The notes: generated from the letters alone by a model not told the origin. Counted from the stretch's first letter, positions 3,464-28,859 are shown. The stretch is DNA of 45,817 nucleotides from Archaeoglobaceae archaeon (GCA_026986375.1 JALSOQ010000010.1:90998-136814), one strand, 5' to 3'. Program-made: numbers and translations.

Positions 3464-3472
3464 ATAAATATA
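3464..3472 (+). promoter_or_regulatory. TATA box of the hydE-hydF-aspA operon
   Basis: ATAAATATA centred about 25 nt before the GTG start at 3493, in the short divergent gap before suhB. No ribosome binding site precedes the GTG, so a leaderless transcript is likely. Position and sequence are seen; function is inferred. Confidence 0.55.
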
Positions 3473-3492: not shown

Positions 3493-4554
3493 GTGATAGA
3501 ACTTATCAAAGGTGATATAACTTACTACTTGGAAACCAACAATTCTGAAGAGATTTCGGAACTATTCAGGTTGGCGGATAGGATCAGAGAGAGATACGTA
3601 GGTAACAAGGTCTACCTTAGGGCTATAATCGAGTTCTCGAACATCTGCAGAAACAACTGCAAATACTGCGGTATAAGGAGAGATGCAAATATTAAGAGAT
3701 ACGCCATGAAGCCCAAAGAGATCGTTAAATGCGCTCAATACGCTGAAGATTTGGGTTACGGGACGGTGGTTTTGCAGTCTGGAGAGAACAGCATATACGA
3801 CGATAAAATGGCCGACATCGTTCGGGAGATCAAAGAAACCACTAAGTTGGCGGTCGTTCTGTCGATAGGCGAAAAGACTTACGGACAGTATTTGGAATAC
3901 AGGATTGCTGGGGCGGACAGATACCTTTTAAAGCATGAAACCTCGAATCCCAAGCTCTTCTACGAGCTAACTGGTAGAAATCTCGAAAACAGGCTTCAAT
4001 GCTTGAGATGGTTGATAGATTTGGGTTATCAGGTGGGCTCGGGCAACATAGTCGGTTTACCGGGGCAAACGATAGAGGATCTGGCGAACGATCTGCTCAT
4101 GTTCAAGGAGTGGGACTTCGACATGCTCGGCATAGGGCCGTTCATACCATGCCACGGCACCCCCTTAGAAAACCACCCGCCGGGCGATCCTATCTTAACA
4201 CTCAAGGTTATAGCTCTGGCGAGAATTCTGACGAAAAACGCCCACATTCCGGCAACCACAGCTATAAGAACCGTTTTAGGTGACGACAAAGCCCATCTGA
4301 TCTTCAGGTGTGGTGCAAATGTGGTGATGGGGAACGTTACTCCTCTGGAGTATCGAAAGCTTTACAGAATCTATCCCGGAAAGGTCTGCAACTTCAAAGA
4401 TCCTGAAAGCTGGCTGAACGACATAAAAGAGCAGATAAGAGAGGCTGGATTAAAGCCGAGCGGAGAAGTTGGACACAGCCTAAAGAGGAGGTGGAGGCTG
4501 AAAACTCTAAAATTAAAACATAATAATAAAAATTTTGATCTTAAAAAGTGTTAA
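3493..4554 (+). CDS. hydE: [FeFe]-hydrogenase maturase HydE (radical SAM)
   Basis: A 353-residue radical SAM enzyme with the canonical CX3CX2C cluster motif at C52, C56 and C59 inside IEFSNICRNNCKYCGIRR, the block characteristic of HydE. Further HydE-like segments are the GxNIVGLPGQT stretch, GIGPFIPCHGTPL, and the C-terminal RCGANVVMGNVTPLEYRKLY. In known systems HydE acts after HydG, processing a cysteine-bound Fe(CO)2CN synthon toward the diiron subcluster of the hydrogenase H-cluster. Relatives to exclude are PylB, BioB and the methanogen HmdB; gene order with hydF favours HydE. It is the first gene of a three-gene operon. Start is a GTG without a ribosome binding site, consistent with leaderless expression. 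Confidence 0.88.
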   Translation: MIELIKGDITYYLETNNSEEISELFRLADRIRERYVGNKVYLRAIIEFSNICRNNCKYCGIRRDANIKRYAMKPKEIVKCAQYAEDLGYGTVVLQSGENSIYDDKMADIVREIKETTKLAVVLSIGEKTYGQYLEYRIAGADRYLLKHETSNPKLFYELTGRNLENRLQCLRWLIDLGYQVGSGNIVGLPGQTIEDLANDLLMFKEWDFDMLGIGPFIPCHGTPLENHPPGDPILTLKVIALARILTKNAHIPATTAIRTVLGDDKAHLIFRCGANVVMGNVTPLEYRKLYRIYPGKVCNFKDPESWLNDIKEQIREAGLKPSGEVGHSLKRRWRLKTLKLKHNNKNFDLKKC

Positions 4555-4579
4555 ATTCATTCGAACGCAACTTAAGGCG

Positions 4580-5827
4580 ATGAAGGGGTTTAGGACGAGG
4601 ATAGGGATCTTCGGAAGAACGAACGTTGGAAAGTCGAGTTTAATCAACGCTCTGACGAATCAAGATATTGCGATAGTATCCGATGTTCCGGGCACTACGA
4701 CGGATCCAGTTTCAAAATCAATGGAACTCTTACCCCTCGGCCCGGTTACGCTCATAGATACACCCGGTTTGGATGATAGGAGCGAGCTCGGAAGGAAGAG
4801 GATCGAGAAAGCTTTAGAAACGCTCGAAGATCTGGATTTAATATTGCTCGTATTCGATGCGACGAGGCTCGACTTCGATTTGGAGGAGAGGATAATAGAG
4901 ATGGCCAAATCCAAGAACATTCCGATAATGGGAGTGATAAACAAGATCGATCTGAAGGAGATTCCAGATGAGAAGTTGAGGGAGTTGAGCGAGAGGTTCG
5001 GTATACCTTTCGTCAAGGTGAGTGCTAAGACTAAGGATGGTTTGATAACGTTAAAACGTGAGATAGTCTTGAGGGCGAATGTCGAGCAAGAGGTTCCGCT
5101 GATAGCGGATCTTTGCAAGGGAGGGGAAGCCGTTCTGTTCGTTCTTCCGAAGAAAATAGATTTCCCGAGGGGCAGGTTACCCCTGACTTGGATAAGAGCT
5201 TTTAGAGAGACGATAGATCAGGATGCTTACTGCGTCGTCGCGAGGGAGGACAACGTTAGGGAAACGCTCGAATATCTGAACAGAGACGTCAGCTTTGCAG
5301 TTGTGGACACGAAGGCTTTCGATAATGCATACTTGCCGGAAGTTCCCGTGACATCCTTTTCCGTCCTTGAGGCGAGGTTTAAGGGAGATCTGACGGTCTT
5401 CGTGAAGGGTGTAAGGGTTTTCGACGAGTTGAGCGGGGATAAAGTCCTGATAGTTCAGTGTTGCAACGATAGAAACAACCCCGACGATCTATTCCTCGAA
5501 TTGGTAGTTGAGGAACTTAAAAAGAGAAATTGCACGGTTGATTTCGGAGATGTGAATGATCTGGAAGGGCATAGGCTGGTAATTCACTGCAACGCGTGCA
5601 AGCTTAGGAGGGACGAAATGCTCGAAAGGATAGAGTTCGTTAGGAGTAGGGGAAGTTGCATAACCACCTTAGGCTTACTCGCCTGCCACATTAAGGGATA
5701 CCTTGGAAGGTTTTTGGAGATGTTTCCGCTCGAAAGGATGGTTTTGGAAGGTGCGGAGGTTAGGGAGATTCCGTATGAGCTTATGAGAGGTGCCAGGGTA
5801 TGTCCGATGAACGCTTGGAAGTATTGA
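4580..5827 (+). CDS. hydF: [FeFe]-hydrogenase maturation GTPase HydF
   Basis: A 415-residue protein: N-terminal small GTPase domain with GRTNVGKS (residues 12-19), DTPG and NKID; a middle dimerisation region; and a C-terminal cluster-binding domain. Cysteines at 294/295 and the HCNAC pair at 337 and 340 match the three Cys ligands of the HydF [4Fe-4S] cluster, followed by the ITTLGLLACHIKGYL region typical of HydF. HydF is the scaffold that assembles and transfers the diiron subcluster to apo-hydrogenase. The usual CxH after the first ligand Cys is here C-C-N-D. ATG 4580 preceded by AAGG is preferred over an earlier ATA-like start; the gap after hydE is 25 bases. Confidence 0.9.
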   Translation: MKGFRTRIGIFGRTNVGKSSLINALTNQDIAIVSDVPGTTTDPVSKSMELLPLGPVTLIDTPGLDDRSELGRKRIEKALETLEDLDLILLVFDATRLDFDLEERIIEMAKSKNIPIMGVINKIDLKEIPDEKLRELSERFGIPFVKVSAKTKDGLITLKREIVLRANVEQEVPLIADLCKGGEAVLFVLPKKIDFPRGRLPLTWIRAFRETIDQDAYCVVAREDNVRETLEYLNRDVSFAVVDTKAFDNAYLPEVPVTSFSVLEARFKGDLTVFVKGVRVFDELSGDKVLIVQCCNDRNNPDDLFLELVVEELKKRNCTVDFGDVNDLEGHRLVIHCNACKLRRDEMLERIEFVRSRGSCITTLGLLACHIKGYLGRFLEMFPLERMVLEGAEVREIPYELMRGARVCPMNAWKY

Positions 5828-7236
5828 GAAAGGAGAGGGACTTTTTGGGGGAAAAGGAGATTCCGGCTAATGTTTACTACGGTATACATACCGCAAGGGC
5901 TAAGGAGAACTTTCCGGTAACTTTCAGATTGGGCTACAGAATCCATCCGGAACTCATCAGAGCTTACGCGATGGTTAAAAAAGCGTGCGCCTTGGCTCTG
6001 ATGCAGTTGGGATATCTGGAGGTGGATAAGGCGAGGGCCATAATAAAAGCTTGCGACGAGCTTATAGAGGGGAAGTGGCACGAGCATGTGGTTGTGGATC
6101 CCTTCCAAGGAGGGGCTGGGACTTCGCTCAACATGAACATAAACGAAATAATAGCGAACAGGGCGAGCGAGATTTTAGGCAAAAAAGTTCACCCGCTCGA
6201 CGATGTGAACAGGATGCAGTCCACGAACGACACATTTCCGACCGCCGCAAGGATCGCGGCGATATTTCTGCTGAGGCAGTTGACGGCTGTTGTGGGAGAG
6301 TTGCAACAGGCTTTGGAGGACAAGGAAAGGGAATTCGCCGGGGTGCTTAAGCTCGGAAGGACAGAAATGCAGGATGCCGTTCCGATAACTCTCGGACAGG
6401 AGTTCAGCGCTTACGCGGATGCGATTGCGAGAGATAGATGGAGGCTTTACAAAGTTGAGGAAAGGCTCAGACAGATAAATTTGGGAGGAACGGCGGTCGG
6501 AACGGGCTTAAATGCGGACCTCAGGTATATACACCTTGTAATCCAAAGGTTGAGGGACATAACCGGCTTGAATCTTGCAAAAGCCGACAATCTGATAGAT
6601 CCTACCCAGAACTGGGATGTATTTGCAGAGGTCCACGGACTGCTGAAGGCTTTGGCCGTGAACCTATACAAGATCTCCAACGACCTAATACTCATGAGCT
6701 CCTTCAAGGAGATTCAGCTTCCCGCGGTTCAGGCTGGTTCATCGATAATGCCGGGCAAGGTAAACCCCGTAATTCTGGAGTGTGTCAAGCAGGTGGCGGT
6801 TAGGGTAATCTCGAACGATGTTGCAATAAATTTCGCAACCGCACACGGACAGCTCGAACTCAACGCTTTGGCTCCTCTGATAGTCCACACGATGCTCGAA
6901 TCCCTCGAAATTCTAACCAACGCCGTAGAGGTTATGGTTGAGAAGTGCATAAGGGGGATAAAGGCGAACGAAGAGATGTGCAGATACTACTTGGAGAGGA
7001 GTCCGGCTTTGATAACGCCGCTGGCACCGTATTTGGGATACGATAAAGCTGCAGAGATTGCGAAGGAGGCGATGGAGAAGGGCAAAACTATTAGGGAAGT
7101 GCTGAAGGAGAAGGGGCTGTTCAGCGAGAATGAGCTCGAAGTCCTGCTCTCACCTCAAGAACTCGTAAAGCCGGGAATTGCCGGAGAGGGGAAGGTAGAT
7201 AGGAAGATCGTTAGTAGGGAGTATAGGGATTACTGA
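5800..7236 (+). CDS. aspA: Aspartate ammonia-lyase
   Basis: A 478-residue member of the fumarase/aspartase superfamily, the same length as typical AspA. QGGAGTSLNMNINE (residues 103-116) and STND (141-144) are of the aspartase type rather than fumarase, which usually has QTGSGT; the catalytic-loop signature GSSIMPGKVNP is at 313-323. The predicted reaction is aspartate to fumarate plus ammonia. It overlaps hydF by 28 bases, so the two are translated from one message. From memory, aspartase genes also accompany hydEF/hydG in several bacterial maturation clusters, which suggests a supply of ammonia or a linked amino-acid fermentation, but no mechanism is established here. Confidence 0.9.
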   Translation: MSDERLEVLRKERDFLGEKEIPANVYYGIHTARAKENFPVTFRLGYRIHPELIRAYAMVKKACALALMQLGYLEVDKARAIIKACDELIEGKWHEHVVVDPFQGGAGTSLNMNINEIIANRASEILGKKVHPLDDVNRMQSTNDTFPTAARIAAIFLLRQLTAVVGELQQALEDKEREFAGVLKLGRTEMQDAVPITLGQEFSAYADAIARDRWRLYKVEERLRQINLGGTAVGTGLNADLRYIHLVIQRLRDITGLNLAKADNLIDPTQNWDVFAEVHGLLKALAVNLYKISNDLILMSSFKEIQLPAVQAGSSIMPGKVNPVILECVKQVAVRVISNDVAINFATAHGQLELNALAPLIVHTMLESLEILTNAVEVMVEKCIRGIKANEEMCRYYLERSPALITPLAPYLGYDKAAEIAKEAMEKGKTIREVLKEKGLFSENELEVLLSPQELVKPGIAGEGKVDRKIVSREYRDY

Positions 7237-7491: not shown

Positions 7492-7851
7492 TCACTCTTC
7501 AAGTCTAATTCTTTTGATCCCGAGCTTGTCGAAGACGGAATCGGAGCTTATTATAGTTCCACCGCAGTAGGCAGCGTGGAATGCATCGAACACATTAGCT
7601 CCGTAATCTTTGACGTAGATTGCAGCTTTCAACAACCTCTCGTCGTCTATGTTGCAAATCGCCATGACGTCAGCAGTTACTCTAATGGGATCGATATTGT
7701 AGCGTTTGCACAGTAGCATTAGCTCGATGAACGTAACTACAGATGTGGTTATCCTTCCTTCATACTCCTTCTTTATCTTCTTAGCTCTCTCCTTCAGCCA
7801 ATCTTTAGGCTTTAGCAATGCTAAAAAGAAATCAGTATCTGCGTATATCAT
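7492..7851 (-). CDS. vapC: VapC-type PIN-domain toxin
   Basis: A 119-residue PIN-domain ribonuclease. The first acidic ligand is in the N-terminal YADTDFFLALL segment, others are in the TFIEL segment and in the C-terminal NVFDAFHAAYC and SSDSVFD segments, which together form the four-acid metal site of VapC toxins. Its start overlaps the stop of the upstream AbrB-type gene by 4 bases, the usual antitoxin-toxin order. By family it would cleave RNA (often tRNA or rRNA) when not neutralised. It lies in an accessory stretch between conserved operons. Confidence 0.85.
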   Translation of the reverse strand: MIYADTDFFLALLKPKDWLKERAKKIKKEYEGRITTSVVTFIELMLLCKRYNIDPIRVTADVMAICNIDDERLLKAAIYVKDYGANVFDAFHAAYCGGTIISSDSVFDKLGIKRIRLEE

Positions 7852-8090
7852 TCAATCTCCTCCATCGCTTGCCTCAATATTTCCTCCCTCAACACCCCTA
7901 TCGGCTTGTCCGGCAAGTCCTTACCAACCTCTTCGAGATCCTTCACCGGATCCCTCGGCTTCGGAACAATTACAACCCTCCCACCGATTTCAACCAGATA
8001 TACTTCATCTCCACTCAACTTCTCTCTGATCTTCTTCGGTATGTACAGCCTACCCTTCGAGTCTATTCTCCCAATCACCTTTACCACCAC
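7848..8090 (-). CDS. AbrB/MazE-type antitoxin (swapped-hairpin DNA-binding protein)
   Basis: About 80 residues with the SpoVT/AbrB core VIGRIDSKGRLYIPKKIREKL, which folds into a swapped-hairpin beta barrel that binds DNA, followed by a C-terminal tail that would wrap the toxin. A TATA-like AT-rich palindromic stretch at 8102-8125 lies about 25 nt before GTG codons at 8090 and 8087, so I start there; an open frame continues to 8141, and GTG 8078 is also possible. It overlaps the vapC start by 4 bases. As in other modules it probably represses its own promoter. Confidence 0.75.
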   Translation of the reverse strand: MVVKVIGRIDSKGRLYIPKKIREKLSGDEVYLVEIGGRVVIVPKPRDPVKDLEEVGKDLPDKPIGVLREEILRQAMEEIE

Positions 8091-8571
8091 ACCTAAATTA
8101 GTGGGAAAAATATTAAATATTTTTCCACTTTGATGCCCCATCTCCCTCTCTTAACCGGTTTTATCCCAATATACTATCAAATCTTCCCAATCAGATCGTA
8201 ATTTAACTGACTGTGAAAATATAAGGCATTTAGGGACTATCTCACAGCTTTTTGGTAGGTTGTATCATAATAGGTTTATCGATTAGGCAGATAGAGGCAA
8301 TTTATGTTTGGTGAGATTTTACCTAAATTGTCAGTTCAGAGGGGTTGAGAGAAGTTGAAAAGTAGTGTTTCCGAGCGTAAAGAGTTTAAGTTGGACGAGT
8401 TTTTTCGAAGATGTTGCGATAGACGACTTAAACGGTAGAATAATGTTTCTTTCTCGTAGCAGTAGATGTAAAAAAGAAAATTATCAAAATACATCTCTAA
8501 TAATTTCACATTTAAACCGATTTAAATAACGTTAAAATTTTTTATTGTGTTGTAATAATTCAAAAAACATC
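8091..8571. other. About 480 bases without a supportable gene
   Basis: AT-rich sequence between the antitoxin promoter and the 3' end of folP. Only short frames occur: for example a 54-codon rightward frame at about 8363-8527 that resembles no family I know, and a 27-codon frame from TTG 8355. I see no tRNA, no clear inverted-repeat ends and no recognisable transposase. The left part (8091-8130) holds the antitoxin promoter. It may be decayed mobile or gene material. Confidence 0.4.
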
Positions 8572-13191: not shown

Positions 13192-14445
13192 TCATATAAA
13201 AGGAGCTTCTCCTGAATCGAACGAGTAGTGAACCTTAGTGAAATCCCTTCTGAACTCCGCCACCTTCTTAGCAATAGATTTCGGATCTTTTCCTCTAAGC
13301 AAGACGTCCGCCATGAACTTCGCTATTTCTTTCATCTCGTCCTCCTTCATCCCAAGTCTCGTAACCTCCTGCACTCCCAATCTGATTCCGGAGGGATCTC
13401 TGAAATCTCTACCTCTCTCCTTGTCCCAAGGCAGGAGATTTCTGTTGACGAGTATGCCAGCCTCTTCGAGCATCTTCTCCGCCTTGAGCCCTCCGATTTC
13501 GGGTAAATCTACCAACACCTGATGGGATTCGGTGAATCCCTTGTGTTCGGCGACGACTTTGAATCCTTCCTCTGCGAGAGCATTGGCCAAAGCCTTGGCA
13601 TTTCTGATTATCTGTTTCGCGTATTCCCTTCCGAACTCCTTCATCTCCAGCAGTGCAATGGTTAGAGCCGCTACGTGGTGGAGGTGGTGGTTGCTTACGA
13701 CTCCGGGAAAAACAGCCCTATCCACTATTTCAGCAAACTCCGACCTGCAGAGGATTATGCCGTGCTGAGGGCCAGGGAACGTTTTGTGTGTGGAAGAGGT
13801 CACGATTTCAACGCCTTCCTCAAAAGGTCTCTGAAACTCCTTGCCGGCTATGAGGCCTAAAACGTGACTTGCATCATAGGCTGTTACTGCTCCAACCTCC
13901 TTCGCAACATCCCTCAGCTCTCTTACTGGATGAGGAAAAAGGAAAACGCTCCCGCCGAAGAACACGAGCTTCGGATTCACTTCCCTAATGAGCTTCTCTG
14001 CTTTATCGACATCTATGTTGAACTCCTCAGCATCGAACGGGAAGTTCACCACGTTCAACCCGATCCTCCCCGCCAAGCCGACTCTGTTCATCGTTATGTG
14101 CCCGCCGTCCTTAACGCTTAGGGTCATAATGGTATCACCCGGCTTCGTGAAGGCCACATATAGCGCGAGGTTGGCAACACTTCCAGAAGTCGGCTGAACG
14201 TTAGCGTGCTCAACTTTGAAAACTTCCTTCGCCAATTCTATCGCTTTAAGCTCTATTTCGTCTATGAACCTGCATCCGGCATAAACCCTCTTTCTTGGCA
14301 GTCCTTCAGCATACCTATGCCCGAAATCGCTGACCAAAGCTCTTCTGGCGGTCAAGCTCATCACGTTCTCGCTCGCTATCAGCGGTATGACGGAGCGTAT
14401 AAACTCCTCGTGCCTTTCGAGAGTCTCTAATATATCCTGAAGCAT
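13192..14445 (-). CDS. glyA: Serine hydroxymethyltransferase
   Basis: A 417-residue PLP enzyme. The PLP lysine is K221 in TSSTHKTFPGPQ; DASH is at 191-194, and IASENVMS, HRYAEGLP and QPTSGSVANLA are diagnostic N-terminal blocks. It converts serine and a tetrahydropterin to glycine and methylene-tetrahydropterin; in archaea of this type the carrier is usually tetrahydromethanopterin. ATG 14445 is preceded by GGAGGGTGAT, a strong ribosome binding site. Monocistronic between the frameshifted gene and the corrinoid ABC transporter. Confidence 0.95.
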   Translation of the reverse strand: MLQDILETLERHEEFIRSVIPLIASENVMSLTARRALVSDFGHRYAEGLPRKRVYAGCRFIDEIELKAIELAKEVFKVEHANVQPTSGSVANLALYVAFTKPGDTIMTLSVKDGGHITMNRVGLAGRIGLNVVNFPFDAEEFNIDVDKAEKLIREVNPKLVFFGGSVFLFPHPVRELRDVAKEVGAVTAYDASHVLGLIAGKEFQRPFEEGVEIVTSSTHKTFPGPQHGIILCRSEFAEIVDRAVFPGVVSNHHLHHVAALTIALLEMKEFGREYAKQIIRNAKALANALAEEGFKVVAEHKGFTESHQVLVDLPEIGGLKAEKMLEEAGILVNRNLLPWDKERGRDFRDPSGIRLGVQEVTRLGMKEDEMKEIAKFMADVLLRGKDPKSIAKKVAEFRRDFTKVHYSFDSGEAPFI

Positions 14446-14525
14446 GCTCTATCACCCTCCGCCTTTCCAAAGCTTTATTGAGCTCTTCGATCAGGTAATA
14501 TGCTTCATTAGTCTGTCGTTCGTTT

Positions 14526-15701
14526 TTAATCGCCGAAATAATCACGATTTTTTTGTAGTGATTTAATAAATTCTGATAGATCAATCGGTTTAGCCTCAAT
14601 CCCAAGTCTATTCAGTTCGTCATCACCTCTGAGGCTATAGGAGCTCTCAGCCTGTTCAAGCAATTCTAAGTTTTTCACATTTAACTTTCCGATCGGAAAT
14701 CCAGTATCCAATACGATTCCAATCCTTTTCACCAATTCGAGTGCTTTTTTAAATGAATCTTCACGTATTTCGTCGAATGCTCTTTCTACCACTACCTCAA
14801 ACGCACACCTCCTTGCCACATAGCAGTCGATATCGTTTTCGTGAATCACTCCAGTAGTAAACGGTATCCCCTTCCTAGCTAAGACCCTCATAACCTTTGC
14901 GCCGCTTCCGCCACCACATACCAAGTGAACGAGCGGTTTTCCCTCACATTTAACTTCGAAAGTTCCCAAGATTGGATCGAACTCTGCAAGATCTAATTCG
15001 TAGAGGTTGGTTATTTCCTCGCAGTTCAGATCTTCCGGCTTAATTTCCGTTAAGATCCTACCGTTCTTTACCATCACTATTCTATCGCATACTCTCAAAG
15101 CCAATTCTAAATCATGTGTCGTCAAAATCACCGCTATCCCTTTCTCGATCGCAATTCTCCTTAGGAGTAGCGATATCTCTATTCTATGCTTTGCATCCAA
15201 AAAGCTCGTCGGTTCGTCGAGGATCAAAACTCTCGGTTCTTGTGCTAAAGCTCTTGCTATCAGTATCTTCTGTCTTTCCCCGTCACTCATCTCGAAAAAC
15301 GGTTTATTTGCAAGATGTTCGGCGTTCACAAGTCTCAGCGATTCCATGATCACCTCGACATCACGCTCGTTCAACCTTCCGAACGCATCGGTGTATGGAT
15401 ATCTACCCAAGCTGACGACCTCAAATCCTGTCAGAAATCCTACATCCGGTCTTTCCGTTGTTGTGATTGCCATAGCTTTTGAAAGCTTTGAAGGCGACAT
15501 TTCATGAACGTTCTTTCCGTCCAAATAAACCACTCCCGTTACAGGCTTCAGCAGAGCAGATATCGTTTTTAGCAGTGTAGATTTTCCGCTCCCGTTTGGG
15601 CCTATTATTCCAACTACCTCGCCCTTCTCCACCCTAAAGCTGACACCGGAAATTACCACCTTCGAATATCCCGCCGAAAGATCCTTAACGACGATCATCA
15701 T
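14526..15701 (-). CDS. btuD: Corrinoid/iron-complex ABC transporter ATPase with C-terminal extension
   Basis: 391 residues. Residues 1 to about 235 are a FecE/BtuD-type ATPase: Walker A GPNGSGKST (34-42), signature MSDGERQ, Walker B VLILDEPT and the switch-histidine segment TTHD. Residues about 240-391 form an extra domain with a glycine-rich VHLVCGGGSGAKVM segment, a GIPFTTGVIHEND block and VLDTGFPIG, absent from ordinary transporter ATPases but known in some archaeal BtuD proteins. It may bind a nucleotide or corrinoid intermediate; that is inference. The start overlaps the btuC stop, with GGAGGAGG upstream. Context next to cobalamin genes favours corrinoid over siderophore transport. Confidence 0.85.
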   Translation of the reverse strand: MMIVVKDLSAGYSKVVISGVSFRVEKGEVVGIIGPNGSGKSTLLKTISALLKPVTGVVYLDGKNVHEMSPSKLSKAMAITTTERPDVGFLTGFEVVSLGRYPYTDAFGRLNERDVEVIMESLRLVNAEHLANKPFFEMSDGERQKILIARALAQEPRVLILDEPTSFLDAKHRIEISLLLRRIAIEKGIAVILTTHDLELALRVCDRIVMVKNGRILTEIKPEDLNCEEITNLYELDLAEFDPILGTFEVKCEGKPLVHLVCGGGSGAKVMRVLARKGIPFTTGVIHENDIDCYVARRCAFEVVVERAFDEIREDSFKKALELVKRIGIVLDTGFPIGKLNVKNLELLEQAESSYSLRGDDELNRLGIEAKPIDLSEFIKSLQKNRDYFGD

Positions 15702-16669
15702 ATCCTCCTCCTCTTTATCACCAAGTATATGACGATCGGAGCACCGAACAGGGATGTGGCGACGCTAATCGGCAATTCCACGGGATTAAGCAGAGTTCTC
15801 GAAATCACGTCGCATAAAACCGTTACGATCCCGCCTACAAGTGCGGTGGACGGTATTAGAACTCTGTGGTCAGACGTTCTAAGCAAGAGTCTTGCGATGT
15901 GGGGGACGGCAAGGCCTATAAACGCAACTATTCCAGCGAAAGCAGTCACGAGGGCTGTTAGTAAACTCGATATGGACACGATGGCGACTCTAATCCTTCT
16001 TACATCAACACCCATACTTCTCGCATAGTCTTCTCCGAGTAATAGCGCGTTAAGCGGTTTCGAAAGCAAGAAGGCGATCGCCATTATAGGAACTCCCGCT
16101 AAGGTTATGGTTTTTAAATTCGACCAAGTTATTCCAGAGAAGCTTCCGAAGGTCCACAAAACGAATACGTGAACTTCACGGCTCTCAGCAAACGTAATGA
16201 GAATCTTTTCCAGTGCGGAGAAGATGTATCCAAGCATCAATCCGGCAACGAGCAACGTTACGGCACTTCTAACCTTCGCCGCAAGGGTGATTACTATAAA
16301 AGTAGCCACCATGGCTCCCAAGAATGCCGACCCTACTATACCCAAGCTGTGAGCTCCGATTCCGGCTAACATGCAGAGTGCTACAGCCAGCGATGAGGCG
16401 GAGGAAATTCCCAAGACGAACGGGCCAGCCAAAGGATTTCTGAAGTAAGTTTGAAGAAGTAAGCCGCTTAAGGCGAGGCACGCCCCTCCCAAAAAAGCCG
16501 CTAAAGTTCTCGGAATTCTGATCTGCCAGAGTATATACCCCTTAACATCCTGATGACCGCTTAGATAGCTAATCAAATCTGGGACTCCGACGTTAACCGA
16601 ACCCACGAATATTCCTATAAGAATCGACGCTATCGAAAGGAGTATTAGGAGCGTAAAAATCCACCTCAT
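15698..16669 (-). CDS. btuC: Corrinoid/iron-complex ABC transporter permease (FecCD family)
   Basis: 323 residues with about 9-10 hydrophobic membrane segments. FecCD landmarks are RIPRTLAAFLGGACLALSG near residue 53, QTYFRNPLAGP shortly after, and the C-terminal GIVAFIGLAVPHIAR and VELPISVATSLFGAPIVIYL. It forms the membrane channel of a BtuCDF-type importer. It overlaps both neighbours by 4 bases, so btuF-btuC-btuD form one leftward operon. Confidence 0.9.
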   Translation of the reverse strand: MRWIFTLLILLSIASILIGIFVGSVNVGVPDLISYLSGHQDVKGYILWQIRIPRTLAAFLGGACLALSGLLLQTYFRNPLAGPFVLGISSASSLAVALCMLAGIGAHSLGIVGSAFLGAMVATFIVITLAAKVRSAVTLLVAGLMLGYIFSALEKILITFAESREVHVFVLWTFGSFSGITWSNLKTITLAGVPIMAIAFLLSKPLNALLLGEDYARSMGVDVRRIRVAIVSISSLLTALVTAFAGIVAFIGLAVPHIARLLLRTSDHRVLIPSTALVGGIVTVLCDVISRTLLNPVELPISVATSLFGAPIVIYLVIKRRRI

Positions 16670-17763
16670 GTCAGCCTCACGAAGAACCTTGGCTTGTAAT
16701 CCTTAAACAGGTTGGGGTGAAGTATCGCCGCAAGATCCCTTATAACCACATCGGTGTGAAGCAATCCGAGTTGCCAGTAGTCTTCGGTTATCGCGTAAAC
16801 CCTTCCATCTCTAAATGCCTTTATCTCCTTGAGCCTAGGCTCAAGCTCTTCCAAATCCTTCAGACTCTTGGCCGTATAACTCGGAACTATCAGAACATCT
16901 GCATTCTTCACCCTCAGAATCAGATCCTCGATGTTCACGATAGCGTATCCAGTTCCGTTCAGATCGTCGAATACGTATTTTCCTCCGGCGTATTCTTCGA
17001 TCATCCTTGCAACGTAGCTGTTCCCTCTTGGAACGTAAATCTTGCCCTTCCATATCCAAGCCCAAACCACTTTCGGTTTGCTTTTAGCCTTCTCAACGAT
17101 TCTTTTAGTTTCCTCAACGTTCTTCACAATCTTATCGAAATATTTTTCAGCCTGCTTCTCTTTACATAGCAAGGCTCCGAAGAACTTCACCCATTCCGCC
17201 CTCGCCAGCGGATCCTTCTCCAGCCACTCGCTGTCGACGATGTATGGAATTCCGAGCTCCTTGAGTTTCTCCCTGACCTTCTCCGTTCCCATACCGGAGG
17301 ATACAAATATCACGACCAGATCGGGATGCAATTCCAAGAGCCTCTCGTAATCTGGAGCGTTCGGAGGGCCTAAATCGACTATGCTTCCGTTGTTCAACCT
17401 TTTAACTATGTCTGGGAAGTATATCCTGTATCTGTGACCCCACATTATTCCGACGATTGCGTTGGTTCCGTTTATAGCTTCGAGCTGTGCTATATGCGTT
17501 GAGGACATGACGACCAGCCTTTTTACGGGAACCTTTATCGGTGTTCCCTCAACACCGCTCGGAGGCTTGTCTTTGTAGAGGATGTATGTTTTCCAATTTC
17601 CGTCTTCTCTCACCTTCAGGATCGTATAGCCCTCATGAGGTATTATCTGAAAGTTTTCGGCAAACTTAACGATTCCCGAACTTTGCTTCGGTGTTTCGTG
17701 TGCGACGCAACCAAACGTCAAAACCGCTAAGCATAATACCACGAACATCTTATCAAGTTTCAT
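16666..17763 (-). CDS. btuF: Corrinoid/iron-complex binding lipoprotein
   Basis: 365 residues starting MKLDKMFVVLCLAVLTFGC, a signal peptide with a lipobox-like end (LTFGC) that suggests membrane anchoring through the cysteine. The mature part is a class III periplasmic-binding-type protein: VPVKRLVVMSSTHIAQLEAI, a YERLLELHPDLVV segment, a long linker helix of charged residues, and NADVLIVPSYTAK. ATG 17763 is 28 nt from a minus-strand GATTTAAATTC box, and the frame upstream to 17811 is outside a plausible signal peptide. Its start codon overlaps that of divergent cbiA. Confidence 0.87.
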   Translation of the reverse strand: MKLDKMFVVLCLAVLTFGCVAHETPKQSSGIVKFAENFQIIPHEGYTILKVREDGNWKTYILYKDKPPSGVEGTPIKVPVKRLVVMSSTHIAQLEAINGTNAIVGIMWGHRYRIYFPDIVKRLNNGSIVDLGPPNAPDYERLLELHPDLVVIFVSSGMGTEKVREKLKELGIPYIVDSEWLEKDPLARAEWVKFFGALLCKEKQAEKYFDKIVKNVEETKRIVEKAKSKPKVVWAWIWKGKIYVPRGNSYVARMIEEYAGGKYVFDDLNGTGYAIVNIEDLILRVKNADVLIVPSYTAKSLKDLEELEPRLKEIKAFRDGRVYAITEDYWQLGLLHTDVVIRDLAAILHPNLFKDYKPRFFVRLT

Positions 17764-17796
17764 GGATTCAAAATCAAATAATCTTGAATTTAAATC
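17732..17796. promoter_or_regulatory. Interleaved divergent promoters of btuF and cbiA
   Basis: On the minus strand GATTTAAATTC (17786-17796) is centred 28 nt from the btuF ATG (17763). On the plus strand CATAATAC (17732-17739) is centred about 26 nt from the cbiA ATG (17762). Each box therefore lies inside the first codons of the opposite gene. The boxes are seen; activity is inferred. Confidence 0.45.
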
Positions 17797-19075
17797 TAAC
17801 GCGGTGGTCATCGGCGGTGTGAGAAGCGGTGTCGGAAAGACTATCGTCGGGTTATGTATAGCTTCAGCCTTAAAAAGAAGAGGTTTGAGGGTTCAGCCGT
17901 TTAAGGTTGGCCCTGATTTCATAGATCCTACGCATTACTCGTTTTGCGATCATGCGGTGAACTTGGATGCATTCATGATGGGGGAGGACGGCGTTTTAAA
18001 GTCGTTCGTCAGGTGGATGAGGGAAAAGGACTTCGGCGTGATTGAAGGGGTAATGGGTCTCTTCGACGGATACAGATTTACGGATTATTCCTCAACATCC
18101 CATATCGCAAAGCTGATAGGAGCGCCGGTTATACTGGTTATGGATGTCAGAGGAGTTTCGCTATCAGCAGTTGCCATGTTCGAAGGCTTCAGGAATTTCG
18201 ATGAAAATTTGAATATCGCCGGCGTGATATTCAACAATTGCACCGATAATCTCTTTCAGAAGCTTAGAAGGGTTTTCGAGGAGAAAGGTTACGAGGTGTT
18301 CGGTTACTTACCAAAGAAAAAAGAGTTGGAAATCGAGAGCAGACATCTGGGACTGATTTTGGGTTGCGAAGCGAAGATGGATTGGAAAAGGTTGGCGGAG
18401 ATAGGTGAGAGCTACATAGACATCGGCAGAATTTTAGAGATTTCGGAAGTTAAGCTTAAAGCCGTGGACTTAGACAAATTCGATCGTTCGGATAATAGGA
18501 GAATAGGAATACCGTTCGATGGGGCGTTTGCGTTCTACTACAGAGACAATCTGGAAATTCTGAGAAAATTCGGGGAACTCGTATTCTTTTCTCCGCTCAA
18601 GGGTGAATGGATGGAGTGCGACGCTTACTACTTGGGAGGAGGTTATCCGGAATTGTATCCAGAGCTTCGCAAGTTCGGGCGGTTCATTAGGAAGGAGGCT
18701 GAAGATGGTAAACCGATATACGCGGAATGTGGGGGAATGATGTTTCTCTCAAGGGGGATAGATGTGAACGGTAGAAGGATCGAAATGGCGGGGGTTCTCG
18801 ATATGGATATAGTGTTTACGGAAAGGCTTCAGGCTTTGGGCTACGTTAAGGGAGAGGTTATAAGGAGCAATCCCTTCTTCGTCGGAAATTTCAGAGGTCA
18901 CGAATTCCATTACAGCTACGCTTTGCCCGATGAAGATGTGAAATTTGCATTCAAAACGGATGGAAAGGGGATCAAGAATGGATTAGACGGTGCTTTGGTA
19001 TACAATACGCTGGCCGGATACACCCACATTCACTTTTACTCGGCCGAACTGATACTTGGGAGGTGTCTTTCATGA
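17762..19075 (+). CDS. cbiA: Cobyrinate a,c-diamide synthase
   Basis: 437 residues: an N-terminal P-loop domain with GGVRSGVGKT near residues 18-27 and KVGPDFIDPTHY, and a C-terminal class I amidotransferase-like domain with YAECGGMMFLS holding the nucleophilic cysteine. It amidates the a and c side chains of cobyrinate using glutamine and ATP. First gene of a rightward cobalamin operon. ATG 17762 gives a 14-residue N-terminal extension and is matched by a TATA-like box; GTG 17804 is the alternative that fits the family length better. Overlaps cbiT by 4 bases. Confidence 0.92.
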   Translation: MDSKSNNLEFKSNAVVIGGVRSGVGKTIVGLCIASALKRRGLRVQPFKVGPDFIDPTHYSFCDHAVNLDAFMMGEDGVLKSFVRWMREKDFGVIEGVMGLFDGYRFTDYSSTSHIAKLIGAPVILVMDVRGVSLSAVAMFEGFRNFDENLNIAGVIFNNCTDNLFQKLRRVFEEKGYEVFGYLPKKKELEIESRHLGLILGCEAKMDWKRLAEIGESYIDIGRILEISEVKLKAVDLDKFDRSDNRRIGIPFDGAFAFYYRDNLEILRKFGELVFFSPLKGEWMECDAYYLGGGYPELYPELRKFGRFIRKEAEDGKPIYAECGGMMFLSRGIDVNGRRIEMAGVLDMDIVFTERLQALGYVKGEVIRSNPFFVGNFRGHEFHYSYALPDEDVKFAFKTDGKGIKNGLDGALVYNTLAGYTHIHFYSAELILGRCLS

Positions 19076-19557
19076 AGGCTACGAAGGATGAAGTTATCGG
19101 AGTTCTGTTCGCGAAGTTAAAGCCGAGAAAGAAGGATGTATTCGCAGATATAGGTTGTGGAAGCTGTGCTGTGTCGAACTTCTTTGCAGATTACGTTTCC
19201 AAAGTTTACGCTGTCGACATCGATGAGAAAGTAATTAGGAGTGCTAAGGTTAAGGAAAACGTCGAATTACTACACATGCACGGTTTAGAATTCCTAAGGA
19301 ACTACGATTACGATATAGTCTTCTTCGGAGGGACAAAAGACATCGAGGAGATGATCAGAGTTGCAAGCAGAAAGGCCGAAAGATTAGCCGTAAACCTTGC
19401 GAGAATCGAAATGGCTTGTAGGACCATCGGGGTCATGAAGGAATTAGGAGTTTTTAAGGAGGCTTTGATCGTTAACGTTTCAAAGAGCTACGAGTTGGCT
19501 GGACTCACGGCTTTCAAGCCGATAAATCCCGTATTTATCGTTGTGGGGGGTGTGTGA
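19072..19557 (+). CDS. cbiT: Cobalt-precorrin-6B C15-methyltransferase (decarboxylating), CbiT
   Basis: 161 residues with a class I SAM methyltransferase fold: motif I DIGCGSCAVS near residue 26, VYAVDID for motif II and the FFGGTKDIEEM segment typical of CbiT. It methylates C15 and removes the acetate side-chain carboxylate at C12. ATG 19072 follows GGGAGGTG, and its first bases overlap the cbiA stop. CbiT is a separate protein here, as usual in archaea, with its CbiE partner fused to CbiC further downstream. Confidence 0.9.
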   Translation: MKATKDEVIGVLFAKLKPRKKDVFADIGCGSCAVSNFFADYVSKVYAVDIDEKVIRSAKVKENVELLHMHGLEFLRNYDYDIVFFGGTKDIEEMIRVASRKAERLAVNLARIEMACRTIGVMKELGVFKEALIVNVSKSYELAGLTAFKPINPVFIVVGGV

Positions 19558-20153
19558 TGTTATTCGGCGTTGGTTTGGGGCCGGGAGATCCAAAGCTGAT
19601 TACTCTGAAGGCGATTGAGGTTCTCAAAGCGGTGGACGAGGTGATAGTTCCGGGAAGGCTCGCGGAATCCCTCGTCAAAGATGTCGTAAAGCCCCGTATA
19701 GTGGAATTCCCGATGGGTAGGAGTAGGGAGGTAACGATTAAGCTTGCAAGGGAACTTGCGGAGAGATGCGTTGATGAAGACGTAGCGTTTGCGTGCTTGG
19801 GTGATCCGATGTTCTACTCCACATTCCAGCATCTCGCAGAGGAGGTTCTCAAGATGAATCCAAAAATCGAGATCGAGATCGTTCCGGGAGTGCCGAGCTT
19901 TACGGCTGTATTTTCAAAGATAAAAAGGTTCGTGGACGTTTCGATGCTCGTAACCACGCTTAAAGAGGAGATCGGTTGTGTAGTCGTCTTGAAAGCTACG
20001 AAGCCTAAGGAGATATGTGAACGCCTAAGGAGTATGGGTATGAACGAAATTTATCTGGCGGAAAGGATGTTCATGGACGGAGAGAGAGTCAAAAAGCTTG
20101 ATGATCTTCCAAATAGGGCTGATTACTTCACGATCATCGTCGGTATGAGGTGA
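19557..20153 (+). CDS. cbiL: Cobalt-factor II C20-methyltransferase
   Basis: 198-residue tetrapyrrole methylase with the family GVGLGPGDPKLITLKA start, a CLGDPMFYSTFQHL segment specific to C20-methyltransferases, and EIVPGVPSFTA. It transfers methyl to C20, the first committed ring-contraction step. Shorter than bacterial CbiL (about 235) mainly in the C-terminal half. ATG 19557 is favoured over GTG 19554 because a G-rich site sits just before; it overlaps cbiT by one base. Confidence 0.9.
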   Translation: MLFGVGLGPGDPKLITLKAIEVLKAVDEVIVPGRLAESLVKDVVKPRIVEFPMGRSREVTIKLARELAERCVDEDVAFACLGDPMFYSTFQHLAEEVLKMNPKIEIEIVPGVPSFTAVFSKIKRFVDVSMLVTTLKEEIGCVVVLKATKPKEICERLRSMGMNEIYLAERMFMDGERVKKLDDLPNRADYFTIIVGMR

Positions 20154-20866
20154 TCGCTCTGAAGGTATACTTCGTAGGTTTTGGGCCCGGTAACCCAGAA
20201 CTGCTAACGCTTAAGGCATACAAGATACTCAAGCGGGCCGATCTGATAATCTACCCCGGCTCATTGATAGACGAAAGATTCTTGGATGAGTTCAGCGGAA
20301 AGAAGGTCAACAGCTACGGGATGAAGCTCGAAGAGATAATTGAACTGATCGAAAATAACGTTAAAGCTGGGAAGATCGTTGCGAGAGTTGTAAGCGGTGA
20401 TCCGTCCATATTCTCCGCCTTAAACGAACAGATAGTTGAGCTTGAAAAGAGAGGAATCGAATGCGAGGTAATCCCTGGAGTCAGTAGCGTTTTTTCCGCT
20501 TCCGCAGTTCTAAAGACTGAGCTTACGATACCCTCTGTCTCACATGCGGTTGCAATACTCCGACCAGCTGGGAGAACCCTCGAAAGGGATTATCTGGAGG
20601 ATTTTGCGAAAATTCCATGCACACTCGTAATCTTATTGGGAGTTGATAAGATTGAAGAAATAGCGGAAAGAGTTGGCAGGATTAGAGGCTGGGACGAGCC
20701 AGTTGCGGTGGTTTATCATGCTTCGAGAGAGGATGAGATGGTTATAAAGGGAACGCTCAGAGATATAGCGGAGAAGGTTAAAAAGGCTGGAATTAGGAGT
20801 ACTGCGGTCATAATAATAGGTAAAGTTTTAGAAAGAAAGGGTAGGAGGTCTGTCCTATACGCGTAG
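20150..20866 (+). CDS. cbiF: Cobalt-precorrin-4 C11-methyltransferase
   Basis: 238-residue tetrapyrrole methylase: VYFVGFGPGNPELLTLKAY, ADLIIYPGSLI, ARVVSGDPSIFSALNEQ and EVIPGVSSVFSASA match CbiF/CobM closely. It methylates C11 of cobalt-precorrin-4. GTG 20150 overlaps the cbiL stop (GTGA). The 3' end carries an AGGAGGT site serving cbiG. Confidence 0.93.
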   Translation: MIALKVYFVGFGPGNPELLTLKAYKILKRADLIIYPGSLIDERFLDEFSGKKVNSYGMKLEEIIELIENNVKAGKIVARVVSGDPSIFSALNEQIVELEKRGIECEVIPGVSSVFSASAVLKTELTIPSVSHAVAILRPAGRTLERDYLEDFAKIPCTLVILLGVDKIEEIAERVGRIRGWDEPVAVVYHASREDEMVIKGTLRDIAEKVKKAGIRSTAVIIIGKVLERKGRRSVLYA

Positions 20867-21549
20867 CGGTTTTGGGATTTGAAAAAGATCTTGAAAAGCT
20901 TAAAAAGATAGCAGAATTCTTAAAAGCGGATATCGTGCTCTATCGTCCCGGAATATTTGGAGAACTCATAGATTATGACTGCATAGTAGCTTACATGCCC
21001 ACTGGTATAGTTGTCAGAGCTATCTGTCCCTATTTGAAGAGCAAGTGGGTTGATCCGGCTGTTGTTGTTGTGGATAAGCTCATGAAGTTTGCAATTCCCT
21101 TAATCGGAGGACACCATGGAGCAAACATCGTTGCAGAAAGGCTTAAGGGTTTGGGGTTAACGCCAGTCATAACGACTTCTGCGGAGTTTTCGGAAGGGCT
21201 TTGCATTGGAATAGGTTGCAGAAAGGGAATCAGCTCGGAAGAAGTCTTGAAAGCCATTAATTCAGCGTTGAATGAGATAGGAGCAAGTTTGGATGACGTC
21301 AGATTAATAGCCACCGTTGATTTGAAGAAAGATGAAAAAGGATTAATCGAAGCTGTTGACAGAATTAAGAGGCCTCTGATGTTCGTTCCGGCCGAGGAAA
21401 TAAACAAAATGGATGTCAAGGAAACCAAGGCGGTTATGGTTGGTGTGAAGAACGTTGCAGAGGCTTGTGCTCTGTTTTATTCCAAAAAGAAGGAGCTAAT
21501 TTTACCGAAAAAAGTTTACGGAGGTGTTACGATTGCGATCGCGAGGTAA
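20857..21549 (+). CDS. cbiG: Cobalt-precorrin-5A hydrolase, apparent ATA start
   Basis: About 230 residues; GIFGELIDYDCIVAYMPTGIVVRAI, the DPAVVVVD and LIGGHHGAN blocks and the C-terminal GIGCRKG are CbiG. It opens the delta-lactone and releases acetaldehyde during ring contraction. The usual N-terminal strand, here RVAVLGFEKDLEKL, begins at ATA 20857, exactly 7 nt after an AGGAGGT ribosome binding site (20843-20849). The nearest conventional start, TTG 20872, would remove that strand and sits 22 nt from the site. I therefore annotate ATA, with the reservation that a base error could hide an ATG. Overlaps cbiF by 10 bases. Confidence 0.85.
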   Translation: MRVAVLGFEKDLEKLKKIAEFLKADIVLYRPGIFGELIDYDCIVAYMPTGIVVRAICPYLKSKWVDPAVVVVDKLMKFAIPLIGGHHGANIVAERLKGLGLTPVITTSAEFSEGLCIGIGCRKGISSEEVLKAINSALNEIGASLDDVRLIATVDLKKDEKGLIEAVDRIKRPLMFVPAEEINKMDVKETKAVMVGVKNVAEACALFYSKKKELILPKKVYGGVTIAIAR

Positions 21550-22282
21550 GCTTTACGTCGTTGGGATTGGACCCGGCGATGTAGAACTGCTAACGCTCAA
21601 GGCTAAAAGAGCACTCGAGGAGTCCGAATTCGTTTTAGGTCATAAGACCTACGTTGAGAGAATTCGCCACATCGTTAAAGGCAAGATAATCGAAAGCAAG
21701 ATGGGAGAGGAGGTTGAAAGAGTTAAAAAAGCAGTTCAGCTTGCCAAATCACACATAGTGAGCCTCGTGAGCGGTGGAGATCCGTCCATATACGGCATGG
21801 CTTCGCTCGTCGCTGAATACGTTTATTCTACCAGAGCGGATGTAGACTTCGAGGTGATTCCCGGAGTTACGGCTTTGTGTTCGGCCTCACCTCTCTTAGG
21901 CTGTGCTGTAAGCGGAGATCATGCGGTCGTAAGCCTGAGCGATCTACTCACACCGTGGGAAACCGTAGAAAAGAGACTTAGAAAGGCGTTAGAGGGTGAT
22001 TTCGTAGTGGTGATATACAATCCTTCGAGCAGAAGGAGGGTCGATAAGCTCGTGAGGGCTATGGGGATCGTGCTCGAAGTTAGGGGGAACGTTCCGATCG
22101 GTGTGGTTAAAAACGCCACAAGAGAGAAAGAGAGCGTTTTCGTAACGACACCTAAGGATATAATCGAAGATCCGAGCAAGATCGACATGCATACGATTTT
22201 ATTCATCTCGAATTCTGAAACGATGATTGTAAACGGAAAAATGATCACACCGAGAGGGTATTCGAGGAAGTACAGGTGGTAG
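21533..22282 (+). CDS. cbiH: Cobalt-factor III C17-methyltransferase
   Basis: 249-residue tetrapyrrole methylase: LYVVGIGPGDVELLTLKA, EFVLGHKTYVERI, SLVSGGDPSIYGMA and VIPGVTALCSASPLLG, then VVIYNPSSRRR, all diagnostic of CbiH/CobJ, which methylates C17 and drives ring contraction. TTG 21533 lies 6 nt after GGAGGTG and is preferred; GTG 21524 lies inside that site. Overlaps cbiG by 17 bases. Confidence 0.92.
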   Translation: MRSRGKLYVVGIGPGDVELLTLKAKRALEESEFVLGHKTYVERIRHIVKGKIIESKMGEEVERVKKAVQLAKSHIVSLVSGGDPSIYGMASLVAEYVYSTRADVDFEVIPGVTALCSASPLLGCAVSGDHAVVSLSDLLTPWETVEKRLRKALEGDFVVVIYNPSSRRRVDKLVRAMGIVLEVRGNVPIGVVKNATREKESVFVTTPKDIIEDPSKIDMHTILFISNSETMIVNGKMITPRGYSRKYRW

Positions 22283-22284
22283 GT

Positions 22285-23442
22285 ATGATGGGCGCTCGTG
22301 GGGATGAGGCGAAGAACATCGTTAGAAAAAGCCATGAGATCGTTAAAAAATTCGTGAAGGGTAATAGTCCTGAGGATCTAATTCTGAAGAGGTGTATAAT
22401 CGCTACTGGCGATCCGTCGGTAAAGGATTTGATAGTTTTTAAGGGAAATCCAGTCGATGCAGGAATAAAGGCGTTGGAAAGGGGTGCTAAGATCGTGGTG
22501 GATGTATCCATGGTTAAGGCTGGGATAAGGTATCACGATGTCGTTGTTGCGGTGGAACACGCGGATTTAGATGCGGACGTGAGGGTTAGAGATGGATTTT
22601 ACAGGCTTAGGAATCTGATCGACGGAAACATCGTGGCAATCGGGAACTCACCAGCAGGAGCTATGGCCGTATACGATCTATGTAAGGAGGGATTCAAACC
22701 CGCTCTCATAATCGCAACACCCGTTGGATTCGTGAATGCGGATAGAGCTAAGGAATTGATCAGATCCCTCGACGTTCCTTCCATAACGACGGTCGGTAGC
22801 AGAGGAGGTAGCAATATCTGCGTAGCCGTACTCAACACTATCATCGATATCGCCCGCGAAAGGGGTCAAATTAAAAGAGGGAGAGGGGTTGTAATCGTCG
22901 GAGTCGGAGCATCTCAAGGCTTTCTCACGGAAAGAGCCATTGAGGAGATAAGGAGAGCGGATGTAATATATGGGAGCAGAAGAGCGATCGAGCTCGCCAA
23001 GAAGTATGTAAGTGGTAAGGTGGTCGAACTCAAGTCGTTCGGGAAGGATGTTTATAGGAGGATAGAGGAGGACGGTAGAAGAAGGAGAGTGGTCGTCCTG
23101 TCAACCGGAGACCCGATGGTCGTCGGTTTGGGTAAGAAGATAAGAGGAGAAGTGATTCCGGGAATCTCGTCCGTTCAGCTGGCGTTGGCCAGATTGGGTG
23201 TGGATTTAACGGAAGTGGTAGTAATAGACGGACACGCGAGGGATTGTATCGACGAGGTTAAGAAAGCATTCAAAATCGGTAGGTATGCTCTGATAGTGGC
23301 GGATTCGAATTTTAACGTCAAAAGGTTAATGGATTTCGCGAACGTAACCGTGCTGGAGAATTTGGGATATATGAACGAGAGAATATGCGAGAATTGCGAA
23401 ATAAAATCGGATCTCGTCATTTTATTTGCGAAGAGGAGGTGA
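22285..23442 (+). CDS. cbiCE: CbiC-CbiE fusion: cobalt-precorrin-8 methylmutase plus C5-methyltransferase
   Basis: 385 residues in two domains. Residues 1 to about 195 are Cbi[25 protein letters not shown] and TVGSRGGSN, the methyl-migration enzyme that makes cobyrinate. Residues about 200-385 are Cbi[45 protein letters not shown] and [16 protein letters not shown]. The normal GxGPG SAM loop of tetrapyrrole methylases is GVGAS here. ATG 22285 follows GGTGGTAGG. CbiE normally partners CbiT, which is encoded separately in this operon. Confidence 0.9.
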
Positions 23443-23446
23443 TACT

Positions 23447-23827
23447 GTGAGGGGTTTGGTTATAGTCGGGCATGGGAGCAGGTTGCCGTATTACAGGGAG
23501 GTTATGGAGTTGCATAAGGAGAGGATAGAGAGGACTGGGCTTTTCGATGAGGTGAGGCTGGCATTTGCAGCGCACAACAGAAGGCCGACTGTGGATGAGG
23601 TTATAAGGGAGATGAAATCCGAGGTTATTTACGTTGTTCCGCTGTTCATAGCTTACGGGGTCCATACGACCGAGGAGCTTCCAGAAGCTTTGGGTTTTAA
23701 GGGAGGAACGGGCGTAATAGAGGGCGAATTCGATGGAAAGAAGGTGATACTGTGCGAACCGATAGGTAAGGATATCTTCGTAACTTATGCGATTCTGAAC
23801 GCTGTGTTCAGGATATGCCAGCGTTGA
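23447..23827 (+). CDS. cbiX: Sirohydrochlorin cobaltochelatase, short form
   Basis: 126 residues, the size of the single-domain archaeal CbiX-S that works as a homodimer. The two metal-site histidines are in [12 protein letters not shown] near the N-terminus and in [14 protein letters not shown]. It inserts cobalt into sirohydrochlorin, the entry step of the early-cobalt pathway. GTG 23447 follows GAGGAGGTGAT. Overlaps cbiP by 13 bases. Confidence 0.9.
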
Positions 23828-25230
23828 TGATCGCCGGAACGTCGAGTCATGTCGGCAAGAGCGTAATAGTTGCGGCTTTGTGCAGGATACTGAGCAAAAT
23901 GGGCTACAACATAGCCCCTTTCAAAGCGCAGAATATGAGCCTAAATTCGTTCGTAACGAAGGATGGGAAAGAAATAGCTATAGCTCAAGCTTTTCAGGCT
24001 AAGGCTTGCGGGATCGAGCCTAATGAGCTCATAAATCCAATTCTGCTCAAGCCTAAAGGAAATCTCCTCTCCCAATTGATAGTGCTCGGTAAGGCTGTGA
24101 AAGACGTTTCAGCGTTGGAATACTATAAGGAAGTCGGATGGTTGCGTGAAGTTGTTGAGCGAGCTTACAGAGAGCTTGAGAAAGAGTTCGATGTAATAGT
24201 GATTGAGGGGGCTGGAGGGTTAGCTGAGATAAACCTCTACGACAGAGATCTAGCGAATATAGGAATCGCGAGAATTGCCAAGCCTTCCATTTTTATCGTA
24301 GGGGACATCGATAGGGGAGGCGTCTTCGCATCCCTCTACGGCACGTATAAGCTCTTGCCGGAAGATGTAGCTTCGATGGTTAAGGGTTTCATAATAAACA
24401 AGTTCAGAGGTGACGTGAGATTGCTAAAAGGTGGGATCGACAAGCTTAAAACCCTTACGGGTATTGAAGTCCTTGGAATTATTCCCTTCGTCAACCTAAC
24501 GTTTACGCCAGAAGATTCTGTTAGCTTGGAAGAGTGGAGCGATAGAGACGCAAGAATCGGCATAGTAAGGTTTCCGAGGATTTCGAATTGGACTGATTTC
24601 GAGCACCTAAAGCCCTTTGGAATAAAATTCATTTGGAAAAGAGACGATCTATCTGAGTTTGACGTGATAATTCTACCGGGAACGAAGAATACAATCGCAG
24701 ACTTAAAAGAGCTTAAGTCGGCTGGGGTTGATGAAAAGCTCGGAAAAATCGCTGGGAAGGTCCCAATTATAGGCATCTGCGGCGGATATCAAATGCTCGG
24801 AAAGGAGATAATCGATAAGGGTGTTGAGCACGATTATGTAAGGGTTAAGGGCTTGGGATTGCTCGATGCAATTACGATCTTCGACGAATTCAAGAAAAAG
24901 ACCGTTCAGGTTGTAAAAACCGTAACGGGGGATGCGGTAATATTGGATAAGATCAAGGGTCAGAAGGTCTGGGGCTACGAAATCCATAAGGGCAAAACCT
25001 TCGCAAGCAATCCGATTTTCGAAGACGACGGCTGTGCGAGCGACGACGGAATGGTATGGGGAACTTACCTCCACGGATTGTTCAGCAACGATAACGTCCT
25101 GAAAGCCATCGCGGGGTATCTGAACGTCAAATTCGTTAAACCGAAAAGTTGGATCGACGAATTCGCCGAAGTCGTGAAAAATTCGCTTGACATTGAATTC
25201 ATCCTAAAAACGATTGATCTGAACTCATAA
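23815..25230 (+). CDS. cbiP: Cobyric acid synthase
   Basis: 471 residues: [16 protein letters not shown]-loop, [38 protein letters not shown] spread over the ATPase domain, then an amidotransferase domain with [10 protein letters not shown] (nucleophile Cys) and the C-terminal GTYLHGLF. It amidates the b, d, e and g side chains of adenosylcobyrinate diamide. Last gene of the rightward operon; its stop is 3 bases from the stop of converging cobN. Confidence 0.93.
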
Positions 25231-25233
25231 AGC

Positions 25234-28653: not shown

Positions 28654-28859
28654 GATCAATTTATCTTGACTTCGAAACAAAAATCTTTGTATTAGTAGCA
28701 AAAGTGGCCTATAAGGTGTTTAAGATTGGGAGTTTTCTCTGCTGGACTTTGAGGAAGAGTGTGACGCGTGGCAGTAGACATAATGCTTATACGGCACTCT
28801 GGAGGCGTAGGTCCCGTAATTATTATTTTGTCAGCTTTTCTTCCCTTTTATGAGGTTAC

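Follow-up and report, generated by a model that had tools for sequence, protein, structure and literature searches.

The 45,817-nucleotide stretch of Archaeoglobaceae archaeon DNA analyzed here (GCA_026986375.1, JALSOQ010000010.1:90998-136814; hereafter the window) lies on a 136.8 kb contig and contains an operon of three plus-strand genes connected with [FeFe]-hydrogenase maturation. These are hydE (3493-4554, +), encoding a radical S-adenosylmethionine (SAM) maturase; hydF2 (4580-5827, +), encoding a divergent paralogue of the maturase HydF; and aspA (5800-7236, +), encoding aspartate ammonia-lyase. The operon is confirmed as real, and its tight packing, recorded in a preliminary description of this DNA, amounts to a gap of 25 nt between hydE and hydF2 and an overlap of 28 bp between hydF2 and aspA. 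The open frame of hydF2 spans 4535-5827 (+), and alignment places the start common to its relatives at the ATG at 4580. A TATA-like box noted in the same description is present as the sequence ATAAATATA (3464-3472, +), ~20 nt 5' of the hydE start codon (GTG, 3493). This spacing is compatible with a leaderless hydE transcript from a putative promoter.

The first gene product was proposed to be a HydE with a CX3CX2C motif at C52, C56 and C59, and both the identity and the radical-SAM cysteines hold. The protein scores 315 bits against TIGR03956, the HydE equivalog model (cut-off 254.6), and stays below the cut-offs of PylB (150 vs 348 bits) and HmdB (79 vs 321 bits), with a BioB score also far under cut-off. 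It matches T. maritima HydE with an E-value of ~1e-98 (phmmer) and PylB with one of 4e-30; together, the profile scores and the T. maritima match rule out assignment of this radical SAM gene to PylB or HmdB. HydE is above cut-off in four other hyd-positive relatives as well. The third gene is likewise an aspartase, as first described, reaching 639 bits against PRK12273 (aspartase subfamily; cut-off 510) without reaching the narrower TIGR00839 model (554 vs 681 bits).

The preliminary description found neither hydG nor a hydrogenase gene, which is correct for the window alone but not for the genome. The host, an archaeon of a hot environment (Archaeoglobaceae; 1.46 Mb, 99.94% complete, 0.12% contamination), contains the full maturation set of HydE, HydF, HydG and HydA, dispersed over three loci. 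A second contig, C21, carries hydG (485 bits, cut-off 312), an adjoining canonical hydF whose product, HydF1 (502 bits), shows all known scaffold residues, an HdrB-like gene and hydA1 (644 aa). A third, C25, carries hydA2 together with genes for a small subunit with a twin-arginine translocation (Tat) signal, a cytochrome b561 and a Fer4/FlpD protein. The two hydA genes score 298.6 and 204.5 bits, and both products contain the H-cluster motifs: TSCSPAW, MPCTAKKFE and EFMACPGGC in HydA1, and TSCCPAW, MPCTAKIFE and EVMACPGGC in HydA2. HydA1 is not considered dead on account of TSCSPAW, because a HydA1 of known structure (7Q4V) has the similar TSCSPGW. Thus, of the two explanations first offered, that of an archaeal [FeFe]-hydrogenase with hydA and hydG located elsewhere is the one that the genome bears out, and it is near certain that the system is ordinary in composition, if dispersed.

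The surroundings of the two hydrogenase genes differ. hydA1 lies beside HdrB-like, HdrA-like and FlpD (MvhD-like) genes (L059 1-5300, G040:C59; L007 12446-15163), as if an [FeFe] hydrogenase had taken the place of MvhAG in an electron-bifurcating complex of the Hdr type. The neighborhood of hydA2 (L008 11310-15032) suggests that this archaeal [FeFe] hydrogenase is membrane-associated and faces outward. In the host genome hydA2 is split into two frames, apparently by a single missing base (L008 12104-13692, contig C25, minus strand; L002 ~2415-2490), which is either a sequencing error or a real frameshift; the frames are intact, at ~470-483 aa, in relatives G040, G041, G042 and G044.

The HydF encoded in the window is a second HydF, assigned from its TIGR03918 score, Pfam domains, alignment, residue table and tree. 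It passes the TIGR03918 cut-off (348 vs 325.6 bits) and comprises a GTPase domain, a dimerisation domain and a weakened cluster domain, scoring 60.5 bits against HydF_dimer and 50.7 bits against HydF_tetramer, where HydF1 scores 118 and 144 bits. Both copies occur in all seven genomes of the class that encode HydF, at 470-502 bits for HydF1 and 228-358 bits for HydF2, and the dimerisation domain is still recognized in the HydF2s, including those of G041 and G042. A single hydF was found in all 50 hydF-bearing bacterial genomes, a set from one pattern-based scan biased toward sequences resembling HydF2, which motif-altered HydF2-like genes elsewhere could escape. HydF1 and HydF2 each form a monophyletic group (100/100). 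Their grouping together relative to bacteria has moderate support (93/82; 0.55-0.8 in a second tree) and carries a long-branch warning; removing either group from the tree leaves the placement of the other the same. The two copies probably arose by duplication within the archaeal lineage, although this falls short of proof. Our literature search, which covered few subscription papers, did not find a second HydF family described.

What sets HydF2 apart is the pocket for the diiron unit. The literature locates this unit in HydF close to T241-Q244, F262, S263, D306, I307 and Y376, with a reported importance of S243 and S263 in holding the [2Fe] unit and of D306 in making the bridge (PMC13360658). 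Numbered as in T. melanesiensis HydF and anchored on 5KH0, positions T241, S243, Q/H244, H300, N375 and Y376 show no variation in 77 bacterial HydFs and the seven HydF1s (with the exception of one S at 244), and every one of the seven HydF2s departs from them at all six; most or all HydF2s also differ at I307 and G308. In the window HydF2, T241, S243, Q/H244 and Y376 are replaced by V, T, K and L, and the three-cysteine [4Fe-4S] site (C295/C337/C340) is kept along with D302 and D303. The three cluster cysteines, S263 and D306 are kept in five of the seven HydF2s; those of G041 and G042 have lost all of them, and that of G044 keeps the cysteines and has lost the adjacent histidine. Because the invariant [2Fe]-pocket residues are changed, we do not class the window HydF2 as a probable functional scaffold. 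The preliminary description of a full-length HydF with GTPase and cluster-binding domains therefore needs revision for the altered pocket of what is a divergent paralogue.

The GTPase motifs of the window protein, G1 to G5, read GRTNVGKSS, GTTTD, DTPG, NKID and SAK. Such motifs are intact, and the reading frame open, in all seven HydF2s, and the C-terminal tail is conserved, ending in NAWKY, NAWNY or NxWKW. The ratio of nonsynonymous to synonymous substitution rates (dN/dS) is 0.058 for the G040-G043 pair, the sole usable one, most others being dS-saturated. With every motif preserved across the seven and so low a dN/dS, HydF2 is, by the substitution pattern of this one close pair, maintained under purifying selection. 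At the level of the fold only, structure prediction is consistent with a HydF: an AlphaFold model of the window protein (predicted local distance difference test score, pLDDT, 81.9; predicted template-modelling score, pTM, 0.67; domain arrangement uncertain) has three solved HydFs as its best Foldseek matches, at whole-chain template-modelling (TM) scores of only 0.43-0.47.

The neighbor of hydF2 is invariant. hydF2 directly adjoins aspA in all seven genomes, and hydE is located away from the pair in the relatives where HydE was found. Bacterial aspA genes frequently lie close to hydF, AspA can act in vitro as the source of the ammonium for the bridge, and the HydF GTPase is stimulated by ammonia (PMC11736057). 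According to the published route, ammonium and serine provide the nitrogen and carbon of the dithiomethylamine bridge by way of serine hydroxymethyltransferase (SHMT) and two glycine-cleavage proteins, T-protein (GcvT) and aminomethyl-lipoyl H-protein (GcvH) (PMC11736057; PMC12752695). GcvT is absent from all ten Archaeoglobi tested, as is GcvH from the Archaeoglobi tested; weak GcvH matches in relatives are biotin carriers and were rejected as H-protein, since each has AMKMENE, a biotin motif, or a sequence close to it. The window encodes SHMT outside the operon (13192-14445, -; PRK00011 489 bits, over cut-off) as a possible one-carbon donor. Among hydF-bearing bacterial isolates, 13 of 16 contain both GcvT and full-length GcvH.

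These observations can be assembled into a scheme in which the roles of HydG, HydE, HydF1 and the HydAs derive from sequence and established pathway knowledge. HydG would make an Fe(CO)2CN synthon, the HydE of the window would convert it to a diiron precursor, and HydF1 would be the likely scaffold and carrier of the [2Fe] unit to its targets, HydA1 in its Hdr-type context and the membrane-facing HydA2 with its Tat-signal small subunit and cytochrome b. HydF2 would no longer be the main scaffold; its GTPase may pair with HydF1 through the retained dimerisation domain, and with AspA it would supply ammonium for the dithiomethylamine bridge. We favor with moderate confidence the whole of this reading, a complete but dispersed [FeFe] system with HydF1 as scaffold and HydF2 with AspA as an accessory ammonium or bridge module, given that there is little doubt about what the system consists of. 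Its most specific part, that HydF2 is a GTPase partner coupling AspA-derived ammonium to bridge building, is a tentative proposal that we rate somewhat below an even chance. It is improbable that the pair goes further, as an alternative machine making the aminomethyl or ammonium part of the bridge or delivering it to HydF1 in archaea that lack glycine cleavage; if true, H-cluster assembly in these archaea would follow a route not yet described.

Several observations weigh against an accessory role for HydF2. aspA is commonly found beside a canonical hydF in bacteria, so its adjacency alone does not call for a new function of HydF2. The S243 to T change retains the hydroxyl and, with the sites kept in five of seven HydF2s, makes some residual scaffold function possible. 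Three of the 16 hydF-bearing bacteria, Desulfofundulus thermobenzoicus, Pelotomaculum propionicicum and Heliobacterium mobile, lack GcvT and full-length GcvH and have an ordinary single hydF beside aspA; loss of glycine cleavage is therefore not specific to genomes with HydF2, and bacteria, too, may not all build the H-cluster bridge through glycine cleavage. In two of the loci of these species (G394, G402 and G408; L082, L119 and L154), namely L082 and L119, hydE and hydG are adjacent as well.

The main rival explanation is that HydF2 is a second working scaffold for HydA1 or HydA2, with its pocket re-tuned and not lost. Two HydA types and two HydFs in one lineage, the selection on HydF2, and the three cysteines, S263 and D306 kept in five HydF2s would all fit. 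We consider it rather unlikely, as HydF2 differs at eight positions that are otherwise nearly fixed, maturation in vitro cannot proceed without the HydF cluster (PMC12752695), and G041 and G042 retain two HydAs though their HydF2s have lost the cluster cysteines, S263 and D306. It is quite improbable that HydF2 is instead a redundant, decaying duplicate without function, kept by linkage to aspA: the long branches and the progressive loss of C-terminal cluster sites in G041, G042 and G044 point that way, but the open frames and intact GTPase motifs in all seven genomes, the conserved tail and the dN/dS of the close pair disfavor a pseudogene. That HydE and HydF serve a different Fe-CO/CN or dithiolate-type cofactor without HydG, the other explanation first offered, might be read from the placement of hydG and hydA outside the window, but it is very improbable and is rejected because the same genome encodes HydG and two HydAs, and these are found together with HydE and HydF across the class.

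We surveyed 59 genomes of the class, sought HydE in 15 of them, and sampled HydG in 393 genomes of the phylum; absences rest on draft assemblies. HydF is over cut-off in seven of the 59 genomes, and the same seven are the only ones in the phylum sample with HydG and the only ones in the class with an aspA orthologue (81-90% identity). HydA was found in six of the seven and HydE in five, the two without HydE being incomplete genomes; all missing HydE and HydA fall in genomes only 68-76% complete. The other four members of the host's genus lack the hyd system, and the nearest named records are Archaeoglobus sp. and Archaeoglobaceae metagenome-assembled genomes. In FastTree phylogenies, whose bacterial set is limited to loci from one pattern-based scan, archaeal HydE, HydG and AspA each form one clade apart from the sampled bacterial sequences, with best bacterial identities of 52-60%. 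This pattern fits one transfer from bacteria, after which the genes spread vertically or within the family, with the direction being our inference. The same bacterial likeness could be taken as a sign of contamination or of a misassembled contig, but the chance that the genome is bacterial or the contig foreign is negligible given the archaeal flanks (F420 and pterin enzymes), the 136.8 kb contig in a genome of 0.12% contamination, and orthologues forming one archaeal clade in seven genomes; misbinning of the hydG and hydA contigs is unlikely because both recur in the seven.

Elsewhere in the window, the archaeal genes comprise an F420 ligase, an F420-dependent oxidoreductase, a pterin-binding enzyme and an archaeal-type LeuA relative. 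Downstream of aspA, genes for a PIN-domain protein and a MazE/AbrB-type protein (7492-8141, -) are likely a toxin-antitoxin pair. After the hyd operon, the region 13192-28701 contains the SHMT gene, a BtuCD-like transporter with a binding protein, and cobalamin biosynthesis genes, namely CobB-type, CbiC and a CobN-type chelatase subunit. An Rfam scan of the window gave no match.

The H-cluster bridge is thought to need an aminomethyl-lipoyl H-protein, and a lineage that has intact HydA, HydE, HydF and HydG and lacks both H- and T-protein allows a direct test of how general that route is, with the HydF2-AspA pair as a concrete candidate for part of a substitute. As natural HydF variants with a re-modelled [2Fe] pocket, the HydF2s could also help separate the GTPase, scaffold and bridge-building roles of HydF. 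Group-A-like HydA is known in other archaea, with [FeFe] hydrogenases reported from Micrarchaeia and Nanoarchaeia (PMC11094006), and Archaeoglobaceae now provide a clear example with the whole [FeFe] system; no report for Archaeoglobi turned up in our literature search, which left out most subscription papers, including the 2024 survey 'Minimal and hybrid hydrogenases'. The window HydE, with its radical SAM and BATS domains and CX3CX2C motif, shows no notable difference from that of T. maritima. Relative to the canonical HydFs of T. melanesiensis (5KH0) and T. maritima (5LAD) and to 3QQ5, the HydF2s share domain order and, in five of seven, the cysteines, with a fold match for the model of the window protein, and differ in all cases at T241, S243, Q244, H300, N375 and Y376. 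Bacterial hyd operons (PMC11736057) resemble the archaeal arrangement in having aspA adjacent to a hydF-type gene and HydE, HydG and HydA in the genome. In those operons, however, aspA usually lies upstream of a single canonical hydF, whereas in Archaeoglobaceae it lies downstream of the divergent paralogue, and the canonical hydF is found with hydG.

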